Positions 9,802 to 16,494 of a stretch of DNA of 64,000 bases are shown here, one piece after another. The position numbers were made by a program, and so were the translations under genes. This DNA comes from Sedimentisphaerales bacterium (GTDB taxonomy: Bacteria; Planctomycetota; Phycisphaerae; Sedimentisphaerales; Anaerobacaceae). Numbering within the stretch: position 1 is the first letter of the stretch; every line of letters begins with the position of its first letter. The notes under the pieces were generated by a model. It was not told where the DNA came from. It saw only the letters and a program-made list of their open reading frames with translations, and ran no database searches. The DNA lies in NCBI GenBank assembly GCA_016930645.1, contig JAFGGH010000046.1, positions 1 to 64,000 of the forward strand, written 5' to 3'.

Positions 9802-10881
9802 TTATTCTAACTGCTTGCTTCGATACAACTCAGCTTCCCAGTTTTCAATAAACGCACATGCCCGGTCGGTCATATACTCAATGCCACCCCAGGCAGCGGC
9901 CAGTTGTTTAATCAGTGCCCCATCCCTCGCCAGCTCCAGCGCTAAAGTTGCCTGCTTCTGAGAAGCGGCTACACCAAAAACAGTGTCGGCAAAAACTATC
10001 ACCTGCGGCAGATAACCGTGCTTCTCTTTAAAATCTCCAATGGCTATGCGTGTTGGCTCACCGATGAATGGATATGGCTTAGAATAAACGATATGGTCAG
10101 GTGAAACGGGCCTATCGGCATAATTAAATTTTCCACATGCTTCAATAAAACAATCCTGCTCTTGTCCCCATGTGTTATGGATTTGTTCCTTGGCTTTTTT
10201 GAGTTGCGTTTCGTCCGGCAGGGGATCTTCAGGCAGTTCAAGTTTTATTCCGTTTTTTTTATATTCATCGAGTAACCTGCTGAAGATAAAATTATAAATC
10301 TGTTGTATCCGTTCCGGGGTGTCGGCGGCGACGAAAACACCGTGATTTTTCAAGAAAATTACCTCCGGTTCTTTTCCGTTTTTTTGGAGGTAGTTTTTGA
10401 TTTGTCTGCGTGCTTCCATGCAGAGCTTGTATCCGGGGTCAAAATAGTCAAGCCAGAGAGCCTCAGGAAACAATTGTTTACAGGCTTGTGCCGCGTCTTT
10501 CGAACAGGTCATCCCATTGATTAAAGCCGGGTGTGTGTGGACGACAAAACGAGCATTAAATGAATCGTGCAGGGGAGCTTCTACCGAAGCCCGCCCGTTA
10601 TTTTCATTTATTACCGCCTGGCGCATCACATCTTTTACCAAGGCTTCCCGTTGGAATGGTTCGTCGGGCGGTTTAATGTCATAAAGCCCTGAAAGCTTTT
10701 TTCGATTGATTGTTATAAAAGCATCGACATCCATTTTGGCCAAACAGGTGCCGGATGGTTTTATCCATAATTTATCTTCGCTTTTAACCGAAGTGTTACC
10801 ACCGCCGCCGAGAACATAATCACTAGTTCCAAACTCATTCGACAGCTCTGTTATTTGTTGAAGTAACAGTTCTTTATCCAT
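9802..10881 (-). CDS. Class II aldolase/adducin-family protein (rhamnulose-1-phosphate aldolase, RhaE-like)
   Basis: 359 aa; GGGGNTSVK, KPSGTCLAKM, FVVHTHPALINGMTCS, IFLKNHGVFVAAD class II aldolase motifs; between rhaA and rhaB. Confidence 0.85.
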   Translation of the reverse strand: MDKELLLQQITELSNEFGTSDYVLGGGGNTSVKSEDKLWIKPSGTCLAKMDVDAFITINRKKLSGLYDIKPPDEPFQREALVKDVMRQAVINENNGRASVEAPLHDSFNARFVVHTHPALINGMTCSKDAAQACKQLFPEALWLDYFDPGYKLCMEARRQIKNYLQKNGKEPEVIFLKNHGVFVAADTPERIQQIYNFIFSRLLDEYKKNGIKLELPEDPLPDETQLKKAKEQIHNTWGQEQDCFIEACGKFNYADRPVSPDHIVYSKPYPFIGEPTRIAIGDFKEKHGYLPQVIVFADTVFGVAASQKQATLALELARDGALIKQLAAAWGGIEYMTDRACAFIENWEAELYRSKQLE

Positions 10882-10900
10882 AGTTATTGATTAAATACTA

Positions 10901-12373
10901 TTAACTTTCTGTAATTTTCTGAATAAAGTGTTGCCATTTGCCGCGGTTTTGAGGTTGATATTTCTCCTGAGGGAATGATTCGGCGATGATTTTTCTTCCT
11001 TCCTTCAGGTTTTTTACGCTCCCGTCGGCGACAGCCTGGACGAGAACATTGCCGAGTACGGTGGCTTCTACAGGCCCTGCGATAACCTTCCTGGCTGTTG
11101 CGTCAGCGGTAAATTGGTTTAGAAGCCGGTTTTGTGAACCTCCTCCTACTATGTAAAGACAATCGCTATTCCTACCTGTCAATTTTTCAATCTTTCCAAG
11201 AGTTTGGCAGTATTTTATGGCAAGACTTTCGAGAATAACTCGAATAATCTGCCCCTTGTCTTCTATTATACCATTTCCAGTCGATTTAAGATAGGTGTTT
11301 ATTCTTTGGGGCATATTTCCCATAGAAAGGAATATTTCGGCGTCAATATCAATATAAGCCCTGAATGGTTCTGCGACAGCCGCCATTTCGGTCAATTTGG
11401 AATAATCAAGCTCACAGCCTTCTTTGAGCCATTGTGTGCGGCATTGTTGTACCGGCCATAATCCCATTATATTTTTAAGAAGGCGGATAGTATCGAACAC
11501 CCCGCCTTCATTAGTGAAACTGAATTCGAAAGTCTCGTCATTTATTATTGGCTTGTCAGATTCAATTCCCAAAAGGCTCCAGGTCCCGCTTGAAAGGTAC
11601 GCCCAGTTTTTATCGCCTGCTGCAGGGACCCCTGCGACTGCCGAGGCGGTATCGTGGCAGCCTACAGTTACTACGGGAATTTGCGTACAACCAAGTTCGG
11701 CGGCAAGGGCTTTTTTGAGCCGGCCAGCATTGGTGCCCGGCCGGGTAATTTCAGGAAAGATTTGTTTAGGCAGCCCAAAGGCATTTAATATAGTATCAGA
11801 CCAGTTGCCGGTCCTCATGTCCATAATCTGAGAAGTGCTTGCCATCGAATATTCAGCGGCAACCTGGCCGGTAAGGTGATACATTATTAAATTTGGCATT
11901 AACAGGAGTTTTGAAGCTTTTTCCAAAATCTGCGGTTTATATTCCTTGTAGGCAAGAAGCTGATAAAGACTGTTAAAAGGCAGAAGCTGAATACCGGTAT
12001 TAAAATATATGTCCTTTTTAGGCATAGTCCGGCATGCCTTTTCAATCATCCCGACATTTCTTTCGTCACGATAGTGATAGGGATTTTCGAGGAGGTTGCC
12101 TTCTTTGTCAATCAAGCCGAAATCCACGCCCCAGGTATCGACACCTATGCTGCGAACATCTTTTTTAATATCCAATGCCTTTGCGATGCCGGTTTTTATC
12201 TCTCTGATTAGACGCGGGAAATCCCATTTTAATGAGCCGTTCTCTTCAATCGGGCCGTTTGAAAAGCGGTATGCTTCGGTTAAAGTGATTTTGTTATTTT
12301 TCAAAGCGGCAAGCATAACTCTGCCGCTTTCGGCTCCCAAGTCAACAGCAATGTAATTTGAACAAGACATCAT
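10901..12373 (-). CDS. rhaB: Rhamnulokinase (FGGY family)
   Basis: 490 aa; IAVDLGAESGRVMLA, IGVDTWGVDFGLID, YLSSGTWSLLGIE, YIVGGGSQNRLLNQFTADAT. Confidence 0.95.
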   Translation of the reverse strand: MMSCSNYIAVDLGAESGRVMLAALKNNKITLTEAYRFSNGPIEENGSLKWDFPRLIREIKTGIAKALDIKKDVRSIGVDTWGVDFGLIDKEGNLLENPYHYRDERNVGMIEKACRTMPKKDIYFNTGIQLLPFNSLYQLLAYKEYKPQILEKASKLLLMPNLIMYHLTGQVAAEYSMASTSQIMDMRTGNWSDTILNAFGLPKQIFPEITRPGTNAGRLKKALAAELGCTQIPVVTVGCHDTASAVAGVPAAGDKNWAYLSSGTWSLLGIESDKPIINDETFEFSFTNEGGVFDTIRLLKNIMGLWPVQQCRTQWLKEGCELDYSKLTEMAAVAEPFRAYIDIDAEIFLSMGNMPQRINTYLKSTGNGIIEDKGQIIRVILESLAIKYCQTLGKIEKLTGRNSDCLYIVGGGSQNRLLNQFTADATARKVIAGPVEATVLGNVLVQAVADGSVKNLKEGRKIIAESFPQEKYQPQNRGKWQHFIQKITES

Positions 12374-12383
12374 TTTATCCCTG

Positions 12384-14102
12384 CTATTTTGCGATTTTTA
12401 ACAGTTCTTCTTCAGCCTCTTTTGTCCACAGGCCACTCTCAAGTTTATCAGCAATTGAAGGATAATAATCGCTTAATTTTGAAAGATTTATCAGCCCCAT
12501 TTTTTCAAGGGCGGGATAAACAATTATCTTGCCGGCTAAAGTCCTGTTTTCCACGGCTCTGATACCATCGATTGCGCCTGCCATACCGCTGACAGCATCG
12601 ACGGAAAGGTTTGTGTCGAGAGCCCCTGAAGTTACTTTTTCCAGGACTACCTTCATATCAATCAATCGTGAGCCGCTTGTGCCGAACATATAACATCTGT
12701 TTGAAATGTATGTATCCAGGTCAATTTCCTGAATTGTGCCGGCTGGTATCCCAGCGAAAATATTTATAAGATTGCCCGGCTGCGACGCGCTCCGCCGCGG
12801 CGAGCCCGGCAGAGAATTTTTTACAGCGCGAGCGACAAGTGAGCCGACCGGCGCCATTATCGCATGATAGCTGAACTTTCCTTCAACCGGTTCTTTGTGA
12901 GGATTGACAAGTTTAAGCTCGACATTATTCTTTCGGGCAAGGAATCGAGTCTTTTGTTCGAGAATATTTATTCTTTCATCATCAAAATCGGTTGCAGTTA
13001 TTGAAATATTTTCTTTTCTGCAGCAGAGCAGACGAATGACGTGCATTTGTCCCATTGGCCCGGCTGCGCCTATGATAATTATTTTGTCGCCATTACGAAC
13101 TTCACCAGATTGCGGTATGTTTTTATAACCGTCCGAGGCGTTATCAGTAACTGTTCCAATCCATCGGGTTTGCCCATAATGCACTCTGCCTACATCAATA
13201 GCAATATCAGTGCTGATTTTTCTTCCGGCAAGGACGATATTGATTATTCCCCCAGGAGACAATTTTGTATTCAGCGTCTCAATGACTTTTTTGTCAGAGC
13301 CGAAGTAAACAATGTCCTTGAATGACTCATCTACAAGCCCAACCAGGTTCTTTACTTTTTTCAAAGAAATGTCGAGGCCCTCTAAAGCTTTCAAATGCTC
13401 ATCATCTGAGCAATGATGATATATACAACAAGGCTTGCCTTTGGTAGAAAAACTCTCTTTCACACCTTTGATTTCGAATCCACTATCGGCTACGACTAAA
13501 AGCTCACCATCCGGCAAAATTCTGTTTCTGTCTTCAGTTATATATGCGTTTTCCACACATGCCCATGGCTCGACAAGAGCGATCGCTGAAGCGCTCAAAT
13601 CACTTTCAACCGGAATGAGAAAACTCTCACCGGTATCAGGGTCAACAATAATTCTTTCATCCATCAGGACGTATTGCTGCAAACCGCCTTCGAAATTATA
13701 TCCAAAGGCCGCGTTTGATTTTTCCGTTGTTAACCACCTGTAATCGGTTTCTATGAGAACTCTTTGGCCTACCTGGTGCCTTTTGGCTTTATCACCTGTT
13801 GCGACAATTTTGCAGCAGGCTTCGTGGCCGGGGACTGCTGGAAGCCGACCAGGTTTATATGACGGAATTTCTTTTAGAATATTACTGTCTATTCCGGAAA
13901 GAACCTCACTTTTTCGGGCGTGTTTATCGAACTGTTTTAACAGTTTCAAATCCGAGAAGCACAGGCCGACCGCCTCGACTTTCGCTAAAATCTGGTATGG
14001 CCCCGTCTGATAAACCTCTTTGGAATTGTTGAGTCTTAATTTGTCAGGTCCAATCAGTTCCAGAGCATATTGAGTTGTAGGAATCTTTTGTTTGCTTTCC
14101 AT
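12384..14102 (-). CDS. Zinc-type alcohol dehydrogenase-like protein with enlarged/duplicated Rossmann region
   Basis: 572 aa; AKVEAVGLCFSDLKLL, LPAVPGHEACCKIVATGDKAKRHQVGQRVLIE (GroES-like ADH), IIIIGAAGPMGQMHVIRLL Rossmann motif. Confidence 0.75.
   Translation of the reverse strand: MESKQKIPTTQYALELIGPDKLRLNNSKEVYQTGPYQILAKVEAVGLCFSDLKLLKQFDKHARKSEVLSGIDSNILKEIPSYKPGRLPAVPGHEACCKIVATGDKAKRHQVGQRVLIETDYRWLTTEKSNAAFGYNFEGGLQQYVLMDERIIVDPDTGESFLIPVESDLSASAIALVEPWACVENAYITEDRNRILPDGELLVVADSGFEIKGVKESFSTKGKPCCIYHHCSDDEHLKALEGLDISLKKVKNLVGLVDESFKDIVYFGSDKKVIETLNTKLSPGGIINIVLAGRKISTDIAIDVGRVHYGQTRWIGTVTDNASDGYKNIPQSGEVRNGDKIIIIGAAGPMGQMHVIRLLCCRKENISITATDFDDERINILEQKTRFLARKNNVELKLVNPHKEPVEGKFSYHAIMAPVGSLVARAVKNSLPGSPRRSASQPGNLINIFAGIPAGTIQEIDLDTYISNRCYMFGTSGSRLIDMKVVLEKVTSGALDTNLSVDAVSGMAGAIDGIRAVENRTLAGKIIVYPALEKMGLINLSKLSDYYPSIADKLESGLWTKEAEEELLKIAK
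12774..12810. repeat. GC-rich palindromic insertion flanked by 7-bp direct repeats inside the Zn-ADH-like gene
   Basis: GCCCGGC (12774-12780) TGCGACGCGCTCCGCCGCGGCGA GCCCGGC (12804-12810); 30-bp periodicity, in frame, encodes an extra SPRRSASQPG-type segment. Confidence 0.65.
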
Positions 14103-14105
14103 TTT

Positions 14106-15197
14106 TCAGTGCAACATAATCTGGCCGCCGGTAACAGGTAAAGCCTGGCCAGTCTCGTATTTTTGTTCAATCAGGTAATAAATCGCTTTGGTTACATCCG
14201 TAGTTTTACAGCCTCTGCCCATTGGAACTTTGGCTTCGTAGGCTTTTCGAACGTCGGCAATTGTTTTAGCCCCTTTTACTTTCCCTGCTCGTAGATACTG
14301 AGCAAACAGGCCGTTTTCAGGATCGGACCACAGAGGCCCGTCAAAAAAGTTACCCGGGCATATTGAATTTACTTTGATGCCGTCTTCTATCAGTTCAAGT
14401 GCAAATGATTGCGTTAGTCCAATACCGCCGAATTTGCTGCCGGCGTAGGCGAAGTTTTTGTTCGAGCCTTTCAGGCCTGACTTTGAATTTATCTGTATGA
14501 TGTCACCGGCATAAGAAGGATTTACCTTGTGCTGAAGGGCAAGAACCGGTGCTGCCTGCTGTACACAAAGAAAATATCCCTTATAATTAACTTTAGTTAC
14601 TAAATCAAAATCCTTCTCCGGCTGAGTCTTTACGCTTTGGGCCAATAAAATTCCCGCGTTTGAAATGAAAACATCGAAACCACCGAACAATTTAACAACC
14701 TCAGAGATGGCAGAGTGAATGGAATCCTTATTTGTTACATCCATACCAAGAGCAAACGACCTGTCCTGTCCGAGACTATCTTTTAAAACTTTTGCCTGCT
14801 GCTGTGCTTTTTCAAGGTTAACGTCAGCTAAAAATACATAAGCCCCCTCAGAGGCCATGTCCCGAGCAATTTCAAGACCGAATCCCTGTGCGGCGCCGGT
14901 GACAATCACGACCTTGCCGGTGACTTTACCTTGTAAATCATCCGCCGGTTTGATTACCCTAAAAACACCCAAGCCTTCAACATTTACAGCGTCTATAGGA
15001 CCTTTATGACTTTTAACAGCCTTTGTAAGTTGCTCTATTATCTGCTCCTGGCTGCTGTTTTCTTTTAGAGAGATATTTAATATGCCTTTATCGCCTTTAT
15101 TATTGTTTTCTTCGAAGCGGATGACTGGTAATCGTTCCCTATTAGCTAACAACATTCTCAAAACCGGAGCGACGTTTTCAATTGTGATATTATCCAT
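14106..15197 (-). CDS. SDR-family dehydrogenase with ~100-aa N-terminal extension (resembles the dehydrogenase half of RhaEW-type bifunctional proteins)
   Basis: 363 aa; GKVVIVTGAAQGFGLEIARDM, YAGSKFGGIGLTQSFA (YxxxK), NSICPGNFFDGPLW. Confidence 0.8.
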   Translation of the reverse strand: MDNITIENVAPVLRMLLANRERLPVIRFEENNNKGDKGILNISLKENSSQEQIIEQLTKAVKSHKGPIDAVNVEGLGVFRVIKPADDLQGKVTGKVVIVTGAAQGFGLEIARDMASEGAYVFLADVNLEKAQQQAKVLKDSLGQDRSFALGMDVTNKDSIHSAISEVVKLFGGFDVFISNAGILLAQSVKTQPEKDFDLVTKVNYKGYFLCVQQAAPVLALQHKVNPSYAGDIIQINSKSGLKGSNKNFAYAGSKFGGIGLTQSFALELIEDGIKVNSICPGNFFDGPLWSDPENGLFAQYLRAGKVKGAKTIADVRKAYEAKVPMGRGCKTTDVTKAIYYLIEQKYETGQALPVTGGQIMLH

Positions 15198-16494
15198 TAG
15201 TTAATATCTCCGCCTTATTATTACTGAAATATTTATGTAAAACAGCTTCGCCAATTTTCTTGAATGCCTTTATCCTTTCTTCTGCGTCTTCATAATCCGG
15301 GTTGGCAAGTCCATTTTCATCGACAAATCCGCATTTACCGTTGGCTGATAAATACTGATGAGCCGCAACTACCATTGCCCCTTCTGTGAATATCTCAATT
15401 ATATCCTTTGGTATCGCTTTTCCGTCCGAGCAGACCGGCTCAATAGTAAGCATATCAAGGGTATTATGTTCAGTCCCTGCAAGCACGGCTATGCCAGCAT
15501 CACGAATGGCTATCACATATTCTTTTAGCACTTCAGGGCTGTTGCGTACGGTAATAAACTCAACTATTGAATAATTGTTGTGTTTCAAGTTTTCGATTAA
15601 AATTTCGGGTGTTGCTTCGTACTCACATAAAGGATCTGTGCAATCAGCGACAACAGGGTAGCAGGGTATGCCGCCTAATTCGAGTATCAACTCTTTTGCC
15701 TGAGCTAGGCTGACAAAAGTTTCCGGTACATAACAGGGTTTGCCGGTCTTCATTAAGTTCGAACGTATTTCATTTTGAATTCCGATGGGATCGTCCGGTT
15801 TGGATTTTATTAGAGTATTAAGAATTTCGCTTAGTTTATTTTTTCTTTTTTCTAAGTCCACTTTTTTAAAAAACTTCTGTTGAAATGCCAGGGCAAGATG
15901 TCTTTCCTGTGGCACTACCGACTCCGGGCTGCACTTGTGGCGATTGATAATCAGTTCAATAATAGCTTTATCATCAAGGCCTGTTTCAATCCCGAAATCC
16001 GCGAAATGTTTTGCTAATTTTTCCGTCATTAGCCGCATTCTCTCAGAGTCATTTTTGCGGATAATGTCAAGTAGCCGCTTAGCTTTATCTGTTTGATTAA
16101 AAAATTTTGTAATACCCTTGCCGCATACATAGTATTTTCCCGGATTGCCCGGGTCGTTTACTCGAATCCCTTTTTCCTGCAAATCTTTTTCAAGAGCGAT
16201 TATCTCAGTGTTGAAAAGAGGGAATATTCCTTTTCCCAGAGCTGCTTGTGCGAAATTCCGATAGACGGAAAAATCATAATAATTACCCACACCGAGTATT
16301 TTTATACCCTGCTCAGCGGCAAGATTTACAGCCTGCTCGACGCTTTCAAAAGCCGAAAAATTCGGCGGTAAGTGAATATGTGTATTTATAAAAAGATTGT
16401 CGCCGTTTGGCAGAATATTGCCTGTCGATGCGCTGATATTTTTAATATCACCTAAGGACTTCAAGAAATCTAATGGAGCTTCGTTAGTTTTCAA
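15190..16494 (-). CDS. PHP-domain-like metal-dependent hydrolase, function unknown
   Basis: 434 aa; LFINTHIHLPPNFSAFESVEQAVNLAAEQGIKILGVGNYYD (HxH, PHP-like), LAGTEHNTLDM; overlaps SDR by 8 bp. Confidence 0.6.
   Translation of the reverse strand: MKTNEAPLDFLKSLGDIKNISASTGNILPNGDNLFINTHIHLPPNFSAFESVEQAVNLAAEQGIKILGVGNYYDFSVYRNFAQAALGKGIFPLFNTEIIALEKDLQEKGIRVNDPGNPGKYYVCGKGITKFFNQTDKAKRLLDIIRKNDSERMRLMTEKLAKHFADFGIETGLDDKAIIELIINRHKCSPESVVPQERHLALAFQQKFFKKVDLEKRKNKLSEILNTLIKSKPDDPIGIQNEIRSNLMKTGKPCYVPETFVSLAQAKELILELGGIPCYPVVADCTDPLCEYEATPEILIENLKHNNYSIVEFITVRNSPEVLKEYVIAIRDAGIAVLAGTEHNTLDMLTIEPVCSDGKAIPKDIIEIFTEGAMVVAAHQYLSANGKCGFVDENGLANPDYEDAEERIKAFKKIGEAVLHKYFSNNKAEILTNG

Follow-up and report, generated by a model that had tools for sequence, protein, structure and literature searches.

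A GC-rich palindromic unit of 30 bp is inserted in frame in an ADH-like dehydrogenase gene of the analysed stretch of DNA (the window, 64,000 nucleotides), and very probably it belongs to a family of non-autonomous palindromic mini-elements, of REP/RPE type, whose copies are dispersed in a Planctomycetota genome. Carrying this reading are the dispersal of the unit, the covariation in its hairpin, an exact 30-bp insert, and the existence of empty sites both for three host genes and for an unrelated palindrome (Table 1). An earlier, sequence-only reading had taken the sequence at 12774-12810, which is present as it was given, for an inserted palindromic mini-element that had kept the reading frame; further genomic copies and orthologues devoid of the ten-residue segment bear this out, and the analogy that it drew with Rickettsia palindromic elements (RPEs) is apt for a dispersed palindrome that makes in-frame inserts in genes.

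Table 1. The inserted unit, its host gene and parts in window coordinates, and further gene copies of the source genome by locus.
Feature	Position or locus	Strand	Evidence or remark
30-bp inserted unit CCCGGCTGCGACGCGCTCCGCCGCGGCGAG	12775..12804	+ (element orientation, antisense to host gene)	own-genome copies, orthologues, empty and filled sites in genome G060
Hairpin in the unit	12779..12805	+	covariation in nine copies, R1 alignment
Host gene, ADH-like dehydrogenase, 572 aa, intact ORF	12384..14102	-	ADH_N domain, orthologues
Left GCCCGGC: flanking G plus element 5′ end	12774..12780	.	CCCGG start conserved in other copies
Right GCCCGGC: element's last G plus host Pro-Gly codons	12804..12810	.	
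Polysaccharide-export/SLBB protein	L057		copy between domains
Two glycosyltransferases	L058, L066		copy near protein ends
RNB-domain ribonuclease	L062		copy at protein end
Thi4-family protein	L071		60-bp copy at end
127-aa ORF in flagellar gene cluster (our reading)	L067		copy near end

The window holds a single copy of the unit (covariance model R1, alignment 55.9 bits), whose boundary is ambiguous by one base, placement at 12776-12805 being equivalent. In the minus-strand ADH-like ORF it encodes, in frame, the decapeptide SPRRSASQPG in the context N-S-L-P-G-SPRRSASQPG-N-L-I-N-I-F-A-G, and taking out the 30 bp leaves the protein sequence NSLPGNLINIFAG, which is ADH-like as the earlier reading had proposed. 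The orthologue comparison that it called for gave a uniform answer: all 29 orthologues (same family and order, 48-62% identical) are shorter by exactly these ten residues, so that, judged from the alignments, the insertion into the ADH gene is apparent at the protein level. In the structure modelled for the ADH (mean pLDDT 89), residues 434-443, which form the insert, are predicted to lie in coil between a helix (420-428) and a strand (444-449), and a pLDDT of 63 for block 431-440 marks this coil as one of low confidence. Near-identical in-frame copies were found in a glycogen debranching enzyme (L055) and in a 748-aa protein (L060), and for either protein 0 of 29 orthologues have residues opposite the insert; 26 of the 29 differ by exactly ten residues in the case of L060, and 18 of 29 in that of L055, where the neighbouring loop is itself length-variable. 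In-frame inserts faced by orthologues without them, the mark of an RPE, were thus seen in three host genes with 29 orthologues each, the comparison having covered ADH, L055 and L060. The ADH-like gene adjoins a rhamnulokinase-like gene (10901-12373) and belongs to a same-strand run at 9802-16494 (-) of aldolase-like, rhamnulokinase-like kinase, ADH-like and sorbitol-6-phosphate-dehydrogenase-like SDR genes, apparently a deoxysugar catabolism operon.

The source genome is a 2.18-Mb metagenome-type draft of 103 contigs, 78% complete, in which copies were counted by search. The core 16-mer occurred at six places with at most one mismatch, a degenerate 29-mer at nine places with at most three mismatches, and a looser pattern with a variable middle at 17 places, each against 0 for the reversed-sequence control; the genome search that had been suggested from the window alone has therefore yielded several further copies. 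Model R1, built from nine copies, returned 28 places at E≤1, of which 11 scored above 40 bits, and matches weaker than about 25 bits (among them L077 and L078) were not counted as members by themselves. Copies lie both inside genes and in intergenic DNA, with variants of 32, 33, 41 and 60 bp alongside the 30-bp length, and the unit is thereby, like REPs in general, a multi-copy dispersed palindrome of 20-40 bp. Five intergenic copies of 30, 32 or 60 bp (L063, L065, L068, L069, L074) have a common outer context, ..GACGA[unit]NACGAGC/GCGAGCAGCGCAACCG.., and so seem to be nested in a second, larger dispersed repeat.

Inside genes, the lengths of all nine own-genome copies are multiples of three (30 or 60 bp), as against those of seven of 15 intergenic ones (Fisher p 0.009, with gene and intergenic labels assigned by our judgement and subfamily confounding length), and six of the nine read SPRRSxSQPG or close to it. 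Moreover, the nine (L055-L058, L060, L062, L066, L067, L071) are without exception antisense to the element's + orientation (binomial p 0.004), possibly because of the replication strand or because the peptide is under selection. This orientation bias is no general rule, since four gene copies of relatives (L083, L084, L089, L093) have the opposite orientation.

The unit starts with CCCGG and ends with CGAG; it forms an imperfect hairpin whose arms pair GCT-CG-(C/A)CGCG with CGCG-G-CG-AGC around a 6-nt loop, with one bulged base and one mismatch in the window copy. The near-palindrome recognised earlier is accordingly real, but the hairpin exceeds the 17-bp core that was quoted for it. Compensatory changes were observed at model columns 15/26 (G-C in five copies, A-U in three, U-A in one), and the covariation score of 0.239 compares with a shuffle mean of 0.132, 0 of 500 shuffles reaching it, and with at most 0.092 in slid controls; coming from nine related copies, this covariation is supporting evidence for the hairpin rather than proof. 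RNA folding of the window copy alone was not clearly above shuffles (z -0.2 to -1.6) and is uninformative because any such GC-rich sequence folds, so that the hairpin is argued from covariation. No stop codon occurs in any of the six frames of the unit, a property of 79% of same-composition shuffles but of 3% of random 30-mers at 42% GC, and since its length is a multiple of three and all six frames are stop-free, the frame is kept wherever the unit enters a gene.

The search of relatives covered 60 genomes, the own one among them, and gave matches at E≤0.001 in eight; across bacterial and archaeal species genomes a further scan returned 53 stretches, the great majority from Planctomycetota MAGs. 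Intragenic copies elsewhere include one each in L083 (Memo-family protein) and L149 (VWA domain). Viral contigs, scanned with an exact pattern, contained no copy, the matches in plasmid and phage collections were only marginal (E 0.01-0.07), and Rfam had no match in the window. The exact 30-mer of the window recurs in CSMAG_1709 (G060, locus L102), a genome with several copies at the apex of ATTCCCGC palindromes. There, a filled site minus the unit is the uninterrupted palindrome CTGGATTCCCGCCTT^CGCGGGAATGACA, which is abundant in G060 in identical context (49 uninterrupted palindromes found, contexts seen for 15), and this comparison of filled and empty palindromes therefore defines, at the DNA level, an insert of exactly 30 bp with a duplication of at most one ambiguous base. 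In G060 the unit also lies in outer palindromes that have different arms (ATTCCTGC.., ATTCCAGC..), a variety that suggests more than one insertion event, an amplified composite being possible for some. In the source genome, the copies L059 and L064 lie between the inverted arms CACGGGCTG and GAAGCCCGTG; unlike in G060, no uninterrupted version of the CACGGGCT..AGCCCGTG palindrome that holds them was found there with the searched arms.

The GCCCGGC pair at the two ends of the insert, which the sequence-only reading had interpreted as a 7-bp target duplication, is real, and a repeat search gives a 12-nt match around it. That interpretation was rejected: copies elsewhere start with CCCGG, hence the left GCCCGGC consists of one flanking G followed by the element's own 5′ end, the 7-bp flanking repeat was found at no other copy among the own-genome junctions, and the empty sites of G060 show a clean 30-bp insert. 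Neither do the own-genome junctions and G060 empty sites, with at most one ambiguous base, show the target-site duplication of a MITE. CCCGGC is common to the ADH target and the element's 5′ end, and some ADH orthologues have SRPG at the place of the insert; the pair either matches by chance or reflects homology of the target, and is not a duplication.

As to how the unit spreads, we propose that the 30-bp GC-rich hairpin would insert as a whole, without evident target duplication, and that copies landing in surface loops, linkers or protein ends would survive, each adding ten residues (here usually SPRRSxSQPG) that we infer to be near-neutral for the host protein. Since the element encodes nothing, it would be mobilised in trans. 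The most plausible route, to which we give about an even chance, is a folded single-stranded intermediate handled by a putative HUH/Y1-type enzyme; a hairpin that leaves no duplication and enters palindromes at their apices fits single-strand chemistry of this type, and folded single-stranded REPs are processed in vitro by TnpA-REP enzymes (PMC8266576). The nine Y1_Tnp genes of the source genome, the hairpin and the clean junctions would also agree with a canonical REP/RAYT system, in which a cognate Y1 transposase, encoded in the same genome next to copies of the unit, would mobilise these as REPs. We consider that version unlikely, however, as none of 31 Y1_Tnp genes in six carrier genomes (nine own and 22 in five other carriers), all of them drafts, has a unit within about 1.5 kb, the cognate gene possibly being absent from the 78% complete own assembly; besides, several own Y1 genes bear different flanking hairpins, and the unit has no GTAG foot. 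Template switching or recombination between palindromes in replication or repair, with no transposase involved, is a live alternative, if a rather improbable one: copies at the apex of other palindromes, the lack of an encoded enzyme or linked transposase, and the CCCGGC in common between ADH target and element all speak for it, yet uniform 30-bp boundaries and the non-palindromic gene sites of L055 and L060 would be unexpected from template switching alone. It is also doubtful that the unit represents an undescribed frame-neutral class of mobile hairpins in Planctomycetota, moved by an enzyme or process not yet tied to REPs; such a class would combine a fixed 30-bp unit, free of stops in all six frames, with no REP tag, no linked Y1 transposase, entry into palindrome apices and repeated writing of the same decapeptide, a combination for which the prospects are similarly slight.

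Two further explanations concern whether the segment is mobile DNA at all. Were the ten residues an old, selected functional peptide motif, with the DNA likeness due to selection, the same reading frame in six of nine own intragenic copies and the one orientation in nine of nine would be natural, but the segment is missing from every orthologue examined, which refutes old age, the DNA sequence is found again in other frames, in the opposite orientation and in intergenic DNA, and the identity holds at the DNA level, silent positions included; we hold this explanation to be very improbable. A metagenome-type draft of 103 contigs could in principle contain a shared 30-base contaminant joined into contigs during assembly or library preparation. 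Variants with compensatory stem changes, copies in MAGs of other studies and a frame kept in every judged gene argue against such an artefact, and its probability is close to negligible.

The mini-element reading invites comparison with known palindromic repeats. REPs inside genes are documented in many species, some of them in frame, and RPE-4 and RPE-6 are classed as CGTC REPs (PMC3733652); REP insertions in Y1 genes can likewise keep the frame (PMC6006769). Like RPEs, especially RPE-4 and RPE-6, the unit is a dispersed palindrome that occurs in frame in functional genes and in intergenic DNA, with inserts in tolerated protein parts (PMC3733652, PMC3767692), whereas RPEs in ORFs are 100-150 bp long (PMC3767692) as against 30 bp here and come from another phylum, the two being compared by description; RPE-4 and RPE-6 are in addition CGTC-tagged (PMC3733652), and the planctomycete unit lacks such an unpaired tag. 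Intragenic GTAG/CGTC REPs (e.g. in Opitutus terrae) are also palindromes of 20-40 bp in many unrelated genes and form the intragenic subset of mostly intergenic repeats (PMC3733652), but the unit has no unpaired GTAG/CGTC foot and occurs mostly as single units, not as head-to-head dimers. Where a GTAG REP has an unpaired GTAG/GTGG foot and a flanking cognate RAYT (Y1_Tnp), the aligned copies end in CCGG and CGAG, and no such linkage was found at the 31 loci in draft genomes. A CGTC REP is defined by an unpaired CGTC (or TGTC/CCTC) tag, an 8-9 bp stem from A-T pairs and a 4-5 nt loop; here the CTCG/CTCGTC end (CTCGCC in the window copy) is paired in the modelled stem, and the loop has 6 nt. Class 3 of TnpA-REP, represented in Planctomycetes among others, likewise has atypical hairpins in genomes with Y1 transposases, but their foot is CnGA and they flank the transposase gene (PMC6006769), in contrast to the unit with its CCGG and CGAG ends and no linkage found. 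Because these defining tags and the transposase linkage were tested and found wanting, we do not file the family as GTAG REP, CGTC REP or RPE, the RPE comparison being one by description.

No paper on this 30-bp hairpin family turned up in the literature searched, a result short of proof that none exists. Very small mobile hairpins for which no transposase is known are reportedly represented by the small dispersed repeats (SDR) of Nostoc (Elhai et al. 2008, cited in PMC3116915); those are cyanobacterial and the unit is planctomycete, the two being likened by description, not by sequence. The unit extends to Planctomycetota the in-frame palindromic passengers best known from Rickettsia, and it is a very clean one, in that one length predominates, its empty sites are clear, and its copies occur within as well as between genes. 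It offers a simple system for asking by what route REP-like hairpins move when they have neither tags nor linked transposases, whether other hairpins are their targets, and how frequently selfish DNA contributes short peptides to enzymes; in practice, it counsels caution in reading indels in planctomycete proteins. Separately from the unit, the Y1_Tnp genes L047, L049, L050, L051 and L054 of the source genome (150-185 aa) have their own distinct hairpins on both sides, e.g. AGTCGCCGTATCCGGCGACT around L049, and several different small hairpin-bounded Y1 units thus coexist in one planctomycete genome.
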